A stretch of DNA of 64,000 nucleotides, from contig NZ_GL538208.1 in assembly GCF_000165735.1 (NCBI RefSeq), positions 420,682 to 484,681 on the forward strand. The letters are read 5' to 3'. The position numbers and the translations under genes were made by a program. The stretch is from Megasphaera micronuciformis F0359 (GTDB lineage Bacteria > Bacillota > Negativicutes > Veillonellales > Megasphaeraceae). Below, one piece after another: positions 55,387 to 57,862 of the stretch. Each line of letters begins with the position of its first letter. Position 1 is the stretch's first letter. The notes beneath the pieces were generated by a model. That model searched no databases. It was not told where the DNA came from and saw only the letters and a list, made by a program, of their open reading frames with translations.

Positions 55387-55671
55387 ATGTTCAAATTTGA
55401 TTTACAGCTGTTTGCTCATAAAAAGGGTGTCGGCAGTACGCGTAACGGTCGTGACAGCGAATCCAAACGTCTTGGCGTCAAATTACACGACGGCGTTGTC
55501 TGCAAGGCAGGCAATATCCTCGTTCGCCAACGCGGTACGCACTTCCATCCCGGCACGAATGTCGGTATCGGCAAAGATGATACATTATTTGCAAAAGTTG
55601 CAGGCAAGGTTGCATATGAACGTGCCGGCCGTTATAATCGCAAGGTAAGCGTATATCCGGTAGAAGCATAA
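55387..55671 (+). CDS. rpmA: 50S ribosomal protein L27 with cleavable N-terminal extension
   Basis: A 94-residue L27. The first residues [10 protein letters not shown] precede [15 protein letters not shown], the true start of mature L27. The block FDLQLFA followed by HKKG matches the Prp cleavage motif, so residues 1-10 are probably removed, exposing the tail that reaches into the peptidyl-transferase centre. The ATG at 55387 lies six bases after GGGAGGTG; an in-frame GTG nine bases upstream overlaps that site. Confidence 0.96.
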
Positions 55672-55682
55672 GGATATAAGAT

Positions 55683-55717
55683 AAAACTCCTTACAGTTAT
55701 TGTAAGGAGTTTTTTTA
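55683..55717 (+). terminator. Intrinsic terminator of the rplU operon
   Basis: Thirteen-base stem (55683-55695 with 55701-55713) followed by TTTT. Confidence 0.9.
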
Positions 55718-55760
55718 TGTAAATTCATGAAATTTGAATATAGTCAATAAAAAAAGTTTG

Positions 55761-55769
55761 TGATATACT
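55761..55769 (+). promoter_or_regulatory. Extended -10 promoter of the ECF gene
   Basis: TGATATACT (55761-55769), an extended -10 element about 128 bases before the gene, giving a long leader. Confidence 0.5.
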
Positions 55770-55817
55770 GAACGTATCGTAAAAAAGATTGGCTTTCACT
55801 ACGGGTATTATCAAAAC

Positions 55818-55870
55818 GAGATACACCGAAAGGACGGTCTTTATTACGATCAATAAACGACTTGTATCTC
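55818..55870 (+). promoter_or_regulatory. Three-way-junction leader RNA upstream of the ECF S component
   Basis: GAGATACA (55818-55825) pairs perfectly with TGTATCTC (55863-55870). Between them lie a short hairpin CCG/CGG with loop AAAGGA (55826-55837) and a longer one, TTTATT (55840-55845) with AATAAA (55852-55857), extended by GTC/GAC. The whole is a compact three-way junction ending 17 bases before the ribosome site. I could not match it to a riboswitch class known to me. Confidence 0.45.
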
Positions 55871-55897
55871 AATAGAGAGCGAGAACGGAGGATGAAA

Positions 55898-56527
55898 ATG
55901 GAAAAAGTTACGACCATGTCCGGGCGGCAAAGCTTTATGAATGTACGGCAGTTGACTATTGCCGGTCTGTTAACGGCTGTGACCGTTTTTTTAGGTGTCA
56001 CAGGTTACGGTTTTATCCCCTTAGGTTTTATGAATGCCACCATATTGCATGTGCCGACCATTATAGCGGCTCTTACGGGGGGGCGAAGAGTCGGCATGAC
56101 TGTAGGTTTTATGTTCGGCGTCTTTTCTTTTGTTCAGACCTTGCGGGCACCGGCAATGTTAATGCTTTTTGCCGTACAGACAAGTATCGTATATGATGCG
56201 GCTATCTGTATTGTGCCGCGTGTTTTATTGGGCCTTATTGCCTATGAAGTGTATGAGTTGGCGGGAAAAAGAGGTCTGTCCCTTTATACCAGGACGGCTC
56301 TAACGGCTGTAATTGCTACGGTTTGCCATACAGTTCTATTTTTGGGAATGTATACACTTCTCGTCGGCTCCGCTTTTGCAGAAGCACAGCAAATTCCCTT
56401 TACCAATGTCATTAATTTGATGATCGGCATTACGCTTACTAACGGAATTCCCGAAGCGATTGTCTGCGGGCTTATCGTAACTCCTGTAGTAACGGCATTG
56501 CGTAAGTCCGGTATTGTACGTTCATAA
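55898..56527 (+). CDS. ECF transporter S component
   Basis: A 209-residue membrane protein with five to six hydrophobic helices, the substrate-binding subunit of an energy-coupling-factor vitamin transporter. The first helix begins RQLTIAGLLTAVTVFLGVTGYGFIP near residue 18, and HVPTIIAALTGGRRVGMTVGFMFGVFSF follows near residue 52; ECF S proteins share a shared ATPase/T module encoded elsewhere. The vitamin cannot be named from sequence alone. The ATG at 55898 is six bases from CGGAGG; another ATG two codons earlier abuts that site. Confidence 0.82.
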   Translation: MEKVTTMSGRQSFMNVRQLTIAGLLTAVTVFLGVTGYGFIPLGFMNATILHVPTIIAALTGGRRVGMTVGFMFGVFSFVQTLRAPAMLMLFAVQTSIVYDAAICIVPRVLLGLIAYEVYELAGKRGLSLYTRTALTAVIATVCHTVLFLGMYTLLVGSAFAEAQQIPFTNVINLMIGITLTNGIPEAIVCGLIVTPVVTALRKSGIVRS

Positions 56528-56554
56528 AAAATACCGCCTTCGGGCGGTATTTTT
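56527..56554 (+). terminator. Intrinsic terminator of the ECF gene
   Basis: An ATACCGCC/GGCGGTAT stem closed by a TTCG tetraloop (56539-56542), flanked by A and T runs. Confidence 0.9.
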
Positions 56555-56579: not shown

Positions 56580-56954
56580 GTGGAAGTATTTGTCAATAAT
56601 GAACGAAGAGAGCTGAAGGTAACGGACGTATTGACGGGAAAAGACTATGCAGCCGCTCTTATCTGCAGTGACCAGGTAGTGGATACGGATGAATATAATC
56701 GATTTGTTATGACTGAAACAGAGTATAATCGATGGAAAAATCTGTTAACCGTTTTACAGGAGTCTGAAGACTTGCGCCCCGACTTGATTCAGGCTGTAGG
56801 TAAGGAAAAGTTGGATAACTATATTTTTGAAGAAACGAAGTACCTTACTCAAGCTTCTTTGGTTATAAAGGAAGAAAATATCAGTTTAAAATTGCTAAAA
56901 AAAGCTTTACATGAAAAAAATTCGGTGTGGTTAAAGGAAAACGGTTTTGTCTAA
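56580..56954 (+). CDS. Hypothetical protein
   Basis: A 124-residue charged protein without membrane segment, starting at GTG eight bases after GGAGGGAG. Sequence includes VEVFVNNERRELKVTD, DTDEYNRFVMTETEYNRW and a helical C-terminus ending LKKALHEKNSVWLKENGFV. I do not recognise a family. The open frame extends upstream through the ECF terminator, so the GTG is the sensible start. It is followed by the first AT-rich patch of the accessory region. Confidence 0.6.
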   Translation: MEVFVNNERRELKVTDVLTGKDYAAALICSDQVVDTDEYNRFVMTETEYNRWKNLLTVLQESEDLRPDLIQAVGKEKLDNYIFEETKYLTQASLVIKEENISLKLLKKALHEKNSVWLKENGFV

Positions 56955-57244: not shown

Positions 57245-57862
57245 TTACTTACAGTACTCTTCTATTTTGTAGCTATATTCTTTTAGAAGTCTCCGTGAAT
57301 AAATTTTTTTATTTTTTGAATCTCTAACTTCTTTCCAAAGGATAGCCGCAACTTTTAACTTGTTGGAGTAATGATTGCTAAATTCATCTGCACAAAAGTC
57401 TTTTAGAAATTGATTCCATTGGCAAGCTGAATTATCATACTTGGCGTAGTCTGACTCTCCATAGTATATTTTAATCATATCTTGGATTGTAAAATTTATG
57501 TTGTTTTCCCGTTTTACTTTTCGCCAAGCTGTTGCCATATCAGCATTAAATTTAAACGGATTAACACCTGTTACAGCTGAAAAATAATCACGAAATTTCT
57601 GATTAAAGGAAAACCCACATTCAAGTAATGATGTATTTAGGGTTATTATTTCGGTTTGATTTTTGTTTCTTTTCCTCAAAAATTTTTCTACTCTATTTCC
57701 CTTAAAATATTGTTCTATAATATGATTTAATTCTTTTTTTGTACATCTGTATTCTAATCCAAGGTACTTACAAATTTGTGAAAGCTCTTCTCGATACCAG
57801 TAGTATCTGTTAAATTCTTCAAATGATTTTATATCTCTAAAATCAGGTCTATTTTCTTCCAA
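57245..57862 (-). CDS. SAP domain and DUF6434 protein
   Basis: A 205-residue protein. Residues 12-52 (SFEEFNRYYWYREELSQICKYLG, then CTKKELNHIIEQYFKG) form a SAP-like helix-turn-helix, a possible nucleic-acid-binding module. The rest matches DUF6434 as I remember it (FTIQDMIKIYYGESDYAKYD, QWNQFLKDFCADEF, KVAAILWKEVRDSKNKKIYSRRLL). The function is unknown. It starts at TTG behind GAGGTGAG, is clearly AT-richer than neighbours and sits alone in an AT-rich patch, which suggests acquired DNA. Confidence 0.7.
   Translation of the reverse strand: MEENRPDFRDIKSFEEFNRYYWYREELSQICKYLGLEYRCTKKELNHIIEQYFKGNRVEKFLRKRNKNQTEIITLNTSLLECGFSFNQKFRDYFSAVTGVNPFKFNADMATAWRKVKRENNINFTIQDMIKIYYGESDYAKYDNSACQWNQFLKDFCADEFSNHYSNKLKVAAILWKEVRDSKNKKIYSRRLLKEYSYKIEEYCK

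Follow-up and report, generated by a model that had tools for sequence, protein, structure and literature searches.

Upstream of a vitamin transporter gene in Megasphaera micronuciformis F0359 lies a short leader that raises two questions: to which class of RNA does it belong, and which vitamin does the gene behind it bring into the cell? A first-pass annotation of the analysed DNA (a 64,000-nucleotide stretch, here called the window, whose positions are used throughout; features are on the + strand unless stated otherwise) had drawn 55818-55870 as a three-way junction that resembled ligand-binding leaders but fitted no recognised class, and whose ligand could hint at the vitamin carried. Our analysis suggests that the leader is a pan-motif RNA controlling panT, the gene for a pantothenate-specific ECF S component, with the second pan hairpin turning the gene off when bound; we give this reading a probability of about 0.72. 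On the computational side, it draws on a family match, a pan fold borne out by covariation and a fixed contact of the second hairpin with the Shine-Dalgarno sequence, together with the association with S-component genes across many genera and the terminators behind pan in synthesis operons.

Identification of the leader as a pan-motif RNA

The leader follows an ORF ending at 55671, which by its sequence we take to be the ribosomal protein L27 gene, and an intrinsic terminator at 55683..55713 (terminator scan) that ends the preceding transcript. Between this terminator and the leader, a promoter-like site, TAGTCA-17-TATACT with TG before the second hexamer (extended -10), was recognised at 55741..55769 by consensus match only, and transcription from it would start at ~55776. 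By eye, the relatives L012, L015 and L016 were seen to carry TGTGATATACT upstream as well.

A cmscan of the window revealed a match to RF01749, the pan motif, over 55802-55891, with a score of 44.6 bits against a curated cut-off of 36.2 and an E-value of 1.8e-4 for the 64-kb window or 6.7e-7 for the local stretch. The alignment spans the whole model (positions 1-92), and 55818-55870 falls within it. The first-pass annotation had called for an Rfam covariance-model search, and this search yielded a known class that explains the site; the view that the leader fits no class was wrong. Matches to the L10 leader and uup families near the site were discarded, as they were below cut-off and located in the upstream terminator. 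RF01749 pairs 55802-55812 with 55818-55828, forming hairpin 1 (HP1; 55802..55828, 10 pairs), and 55858-55870 with 55875-55887, forming hairpin 2 (HP2; 55858..55887). Bulged A residues are located at 55810 and 55825 in HP1 and at 55866 (5' side) and 55884 (3' side) in HP2. The Shine-Dalgarno sequence, GGAGG, occupies 55887..55891, a near-invariant position in the alignment of 73 leaders described below (A2); the first G still pairs within HP2, as its final paired position, and the remainder is predicted to be unpaired.

We compared the leader with the pan motif as set out in the accessible part of its original description (Weinberg et al. 2010, PMC2864571) and found the two to be similar in their tandem hairpins (an arrangement of most, not all, members), in the two conserved bulged A residues of each stem, which both HP1 and HP2 possess, in the link to the pantothenate pathway and in a score above the curated cut-off. 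Several differences were also present. The gene next to the window leader encodes a transporter S component, whereas the reported context consists of panB, panC and aspartate decarboxylase (panD) operons; genomic context stands outside the structural definition of the motif. In addition, HP2 touches the Shine-Dalgarno sequence, a long stem surrounds HP1, and part of the window leader's relatives carry a single hairpin.

Fold of the leader and comparison with the three-way junction

The minimum-energy fold of 55774-55891 (-31.8 kcal/mol, z -4.39, 0/200 shuffles as stable) contained both pan hairpins and an additional stem, P0, with mean pair probabilities of 0.87 for HP1, 0.94 for HP2 and 0.85 for P0. 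The observations from which the junction had been drawn were reproducible: 55818-55825 are fully complementary to 55863-55870 (8 bp), 17 bases (55871-55887) lead from there up to GGAGG, and the 53-mer in isolation folds as drawn (-13.4 kcal/mol, z -2.81, 4/200 shuffles equally stable). However, the closing stem is built from the 3' arm of HP1, which contains 55818-55825, and the 5' arm of HP2, which contains 55863-55870, and it therefore excludes both pan hairpins. This 8-bp stem had a mean probability of 3e-7 when the full leader (55774-55910) was folded, and forcing it cost 9.5 kcal/mol (-22.3 vs -31.8). On the 90-nt core alone, the two hairpins (-15.8) and the junction (-14.9) were less than 1 kcal/mol apart, which explains why a junction was seen by eye.

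The two folds also behaved differently across homologues. In 31 tandem leaders (A3), the pan fold was paired in 96.8% of cells, 10 of its 20 pairs were changed on both sides, none of 500 shuffles reached any of five measures, and slid controls paired at 30-49%; these rows were aligned by sequence and selected by a hairpin pattern that requires pairing, so the HP1 percentages favour the pan fold. In the same leaders, the junction was paired in 50.3% of cells, a level that 158 of 500 shuffles reached (shuffled mean 49.7), and its 8-bp stem showed no pair with a change on both sides. HP2 was analysed in A2, which holds 73 distinct rows anchored at the Shine-Dalgarno sequence, including the pattern-failing L089, L114 and L158, and omits duplicates, the N-masked L047, and L119, L169 and L170, in which no HP2 was anchorable there. 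In A2, 97.8% of HP2 cells were paired and all 10 pairs were compensated on both sides (0/500 shuffles; slid controls 38-52%). The bulged A residues, which lie five base pairs apart on opposite strands of each hairpin, were conserved in at least 90% of the A2 rows; the constant parts of the hairpins are these residues and the stem pairs, while the loops are not conserved. In the window and its three nearest relatives, pairing was 100% for the pan fold, 75.9% for the junction and 90% for the closing stem, again with no two-sided change in the latter.

Taken together, the real octamer complementarity, the stability of the isolated 53-mer and the 90% pairing of the closing stem among near relatives speak for a new ligand-binding junction at 55818-55870, but they are outweighed by the energetic penalty in a leader whose pan fold excludes it, by pairing at shuffle level and by a closing stem that lacks compensation; we consider the junction ruled out for practical purposes. 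The homologue alignment that the first-pass annotation had proposed thus showed the drawn stems not to be conserved. We infer that the complementarity of the octamers stems from the likeness of the two tandem pan hairpins to each other. The same stem might alternatively serve as the ON state of a two-state switch in a small group of leaders, in which HP2 loses its 5' arm to the 3' arm of HP1, leaving the Shine-Dalgarno region free. The near-equal energies on the 90-nt core and the retention of most of the stem in the three nearest relatives would suit such a switch, yet the junction becomes 9.5 kcal/mol worse once the upstream strand of P0 is included, compensations are absent and HP1 is missing from some leaders, which makes this switch improbable. 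The first-pass proposal did hold in taking the leader to be structured, conserved and regulatory, and to belong to a vitamin transporter gene.

P0 was found in neither the Rfam model nor the junction drawing. In the minimum-energy fold, it pairs 55774..55797 with 55828..55851 (21 pairs) and encloses HP1; its 3' strand supplies the bases used by the middle hairpin of the junction. We calculated how stably the spacer behind HP1 forms a duplex with the bases in front of HP1 and set this energy against 200 shuffles of the spacer; the window gave the strongest signal (z -6.5, 0/200). Among 35 two-hairpin leaders, 11 reached p<=0.01 and 24 failed to reach 0.05, and P0 was unsupported as a constant part of all leaders. 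The P0 sequences of L034, L035, L036, L048, L053, L060, L088, L092 and L156 differ widely, which points to compensation.

The downstream gene is a probable panT

The gene at 55898..56527 encodes a 209-aa protein that matched PF12822 (E 8.6e-14), in agreement with its annotation as an ECF S component. A phmmer search identified 4rfs_S (E 6.8e-13) and 6zg3_C (E 7e-4) as its sole good solved relatives by sequence. The AlphaFold model (pLDDT 83, pTM 0.79) was likewise of the S-component fold and was best matched by 4rfs_S, 'Structure of a pantothenate energy coupling factor transporter' (E 1.1e-5), followed by the RibU S component (E 1.1e-3), 6zg3, 'ECF PanT' (E 1.8e-3), and then ThiT. In the structure comparison, the identities to the two PanT structures, 4rfs and 6zg3, were 27% and 20%. 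No NCBIfam model matched the protein. The genome contains 2 EcfT homologues and five PF12822 regions, four of them over cut-off. It gave no match to panC or panB; a genome without these two genes must import pantothenate or a later intermediate. Judged from sequence and model comparison, the gene is probably panT, encoding a pantothenate ECF S component; pantothenate as the substrate is suggested by the protein's relatives, the pan leader and the lack of panB and panC. The expectation that the RNA would hint at the vitamin was therefore sound, since the pan class does point to pantothenate.

PanU (YhfU) of Bacillus subtilis has the same ECF transporter role as the window S component, and the available portion of the PanU paper (PMC11487621) contains 0 mentions of an RNA leader, riboswitch or RNA motif. 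The Bacillus subtilis genome, included as a control, matches RF01749 when scored as a whole. Vitamin riboswitches (TPP, FMN, B12) occur before ECF S components. There, the ligands are known, and the RNA leader likewise reveals the vitamin carried.

Behind panT, a terminator-like hairpin, AATACCGCC-TTCG-GGCGGTATT with a T run, was identified by eye at 56530..56554 (it is absent from the terminator scan list), and panT is thus probably a single-gene transcript. A 124-aa ORF at 56580-56954 (+), located between panT and a polysaccharide deacetylase gene, had no Pfam or NCBIfam match; a similar ORF also comes after panT in L015. Further downstream, the gene at 57245-57862 lies on the opposite strand (-); its 205-aa product carries a SAP_new25 domain (PF18953, E 2.5e-16).

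Distribution of pan at S-component genes

RF01749 matched 26 of the 61 genomes of the order and 197 of 380 in the class, the latter under stricter filters that missed G000 itself, a sign of filter loss. By coordinates, a match lay at an S-component gene in 8 of the 61 genomes, one of them below cut-off. A search with the pan-hairpin pattern gave a different picture, with hits upstream of 59 of the 62 readable S-component loci of the order (mean 5.3 and maximum 11 in 100 shuffles). In the class, HP2 was found directly at a G-rich Shine-Dalgarno sequence in 80 of 86 loci, the six misses being L047 (N-masked), L089 (3' arm only), L114 (variant AUU...AA), L119 (distant S component), L158 and L169. 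Among these 80 leaders, HP1 was present by the strict pattern in 35 and by the relaxed pattern in 24 (a count without chance estimate that includes some doubtful cases), and absent by both in 21, many of which come from one genus. The leaders lacking HP1 suggest that one hairpin can suffice.

We also scanned with a model, R1, built from the 73 leaders of A2. It found 60 sites in 57 of the 61 genomes of the order, as expected since these trained it. No genome of the order had more than two R1 sites, and the doubles belong to three genomes with two adjacent S genes. Run on 398 genomes of the phylum, R1 gave 14 sites spread over 13 genomes. Four of these sites fall in training genomes; nine of the other 10 have an S-component homologue 4-8 bases on (blastp E 7e-12 or better vs the protein of the window), and the tenth, which is the weakest at 27.6 bits, precedes an oxidoreductase-like gene unrelated to S components. 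The window's genome has one site, despite its five PF12822 regions. The tandem-hairpin Rfam model thus misses most panT-type members, with 8 of 61 genomes flagged against 57 of 61 by R1, which was trained on them.

Among the named members with pan at an S gene are Anaeroglobus geminatus and species of Megasphaera, Dialister and Negativicoccus. In two Lachnospiraceae, as well as in Clostridium frigidicarnis and Clostridium viride, the Shine-Dalgarno sequence is immediately preceded by just one hairpin of similar form. At L143, L144 and L145 (Lachnospiraceae and Clostridium viride S genes), the single pan-like hairpin ends in AGCAGGAGG and is either of the same family or a look-alike. In G035, G038 and G039 (L106, L107, L109, L115-L117), two adjacent panT-like S genes each carry a complete tandem pan leader. 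Outside the 86 loci, the S gene of L170 (genome G337) is broken by an internal stop, with a tandem pan of the ordinary kind farther upstream; the locus represents either a decaying panT or an assembly error.

A link between pan at panT and the loss of panC or panB was considered, as 7 of the 8 genomes flagged by RF01749 lacked panC and all lacked panB (Fisher p 0.005 and 0.10). We withdrew it because the leader stands in nearly every panT locus, so that the link is an artefact of the low sensitivity of the Rfam model there.

Other pan sites and their terminators

The 17 genomes of the family contained 23 pan sites: 4 before an S component, 10 before a PanS-like transporter of the bile-acid-symporter family followed by panC, 1 before panC directly, 7 before the gene of a DUF2520 Rossmann protein with panB behind it, and 1 before a lipoprotein e(P4)-family phosphatase. 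These family names rest on one example per type, with panB recognised by the panB search and by sequence; the PanS model score on the PanS-like transporter was 320.6, below the cut-off of 400. All 19 sites not at an S component had an intrinsic terminator (-12 kcal/mol) within 140 nt, compared with 1.7 in shuffles, and in a wider set a terminator lay within 260 nt of 47 of 48 pan sites, 19 of these 48 loci having been taken into the shuffle control. The panT-type leaders have no room for a terminator because HP2 shares its last base pair with the start of the Shine-Dalgarno sequence. An antiterminator formed by the 3' strand of pan and the terminator was retained only as a hint, since such pairing reached p<=0.05 in 10 of 47 loci, modestly above chance, and related loci are not independent.

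Two of these contexts deserve further comment. At L009:1501-2593, the pan site (55 bits) stands ahead of the gene for the lipoprotein e(P4)-family acid phosphatase, and the genome concerned (G004) gave no match to either panB or panC; the enzyme may act outside the cell, dephosphorylating phosphopantothenate or fragments of CoA so that they can be taken up. At L017-L023, pan precedes the DUF2520 Rossmann protein and then panB. Tied to the pathway by its pan leader, the DUF2520 protein is a candidate ketopantoate reductase of the PanG-like kind.

Discussion

In the model that we propose, a factor, whether the metabolite or a protein that recognises RNA, would bind and stabilise the pan hairpins when pantothenate or CoA is sufficient, and the bound HP2 would shut the ribosome out of panT; at low supply, the panT ribosome site would be free and uptake would rise. 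In the leaders of synthesis genes, bound pan would let the terminator form. That one element has two outputs, a terminator and a Shine-Dalgarno sequence, suggests a common logic in which bound means off. The sign of control and its translational level, like the pantothenate substrate, are what we infer here. As the Shine-Dalgarno sequence is predicted to be mostly unpaired even with HP2 formed, the hairpin by itself need not block it; together with the constant contact between the two, this points to a bound factor rather than to the hairpin alone.

The bound factor could be a metabolite or a protein. Riboswitch classes usually use differing expression platforms, and tandem small hairpins can be riboswitches, as in guanidine-II and mini-ykkC. 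Since pan stands before both synthesis and uptake genes with two such platforms, and in view of the precedents for tandem hairpins, a riboswitch with pantothenate, CoA or a precursor as its metabolite ligand is a possibility that we hold tentatively. Its conserved core would be very small, and a 2022 review (PMC9971707), in its accessible part, places CoA among the ligands for which no riboswitch class is known. We lean towards a protein site, to which we give even odds: a dimeric RNA-binding protein that senses a metabolite of the pantothenate/CoA pathway would bind the tandem hairpins and repress. A dimeric protein-binding motif was suggested by the discoverers of pan from its simple structure and tandem arrangement, according to the available text of PMC2864571, and constant stems and bulged A residues around unconserved loops are consistent with such a site, as is the single hairpin at the Shine-Dalgarno sequence that seems enough in some leaders.

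Our searches covered an open-access library, without subscription journals, supplementary files or resources like RegPrecise, and returned no account of pan before panT. In the accessible parts of Bacillus and Paenibacillus transcriptome papers, pan was placed before panB-panC-panD only. The available text of PMC6593275 names PanT and PanS as transporters and describes a panD-panC-panS operon, and the riboswitches used there are TPP, FMN, THF and B12, with pan not among them; the regulon survey PMC3766115 has no mention of pantothenate or pan. Compared with the cited accounts, pan before a pantothenate transporter gene, the fixed arrangement of HP2 and the Shine-Dalgarno sequence, a stem that encloses HP1 and a wide occurrence that escapes the Rfam model appear to be new, although priority is not certain.

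Among the papers found, the pan motif has been without an assigned effector since 2010. Its presence at the ribosome site of a vitamin B5 uptake gene, in most of an order and beyond, would extend its reach from synthesis to uptake, and with this double placement the signal sensed is more plausibly an end product (pantothenate or CoA) than an intermediate of synthesis. In a more speculative form, which we think unlikely yet worth stating, the pan hairpin would be a direct RNA sensor of ~30 nt for a metabolite of the pantothenate/CoA pathway, governing B5 synthesis through terminators and uptake through a hairpin at the panT Shine-Dalgarno sequence (a single one in some genera) across several classes of the phylum, and thus the missing riboswitch of the CoA branch. 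The panT-type pan leader is a very small RNA on which binding could be studied, and it may serve as a marker to annotate pantothenate S components among the many look-alike ECF S genes.
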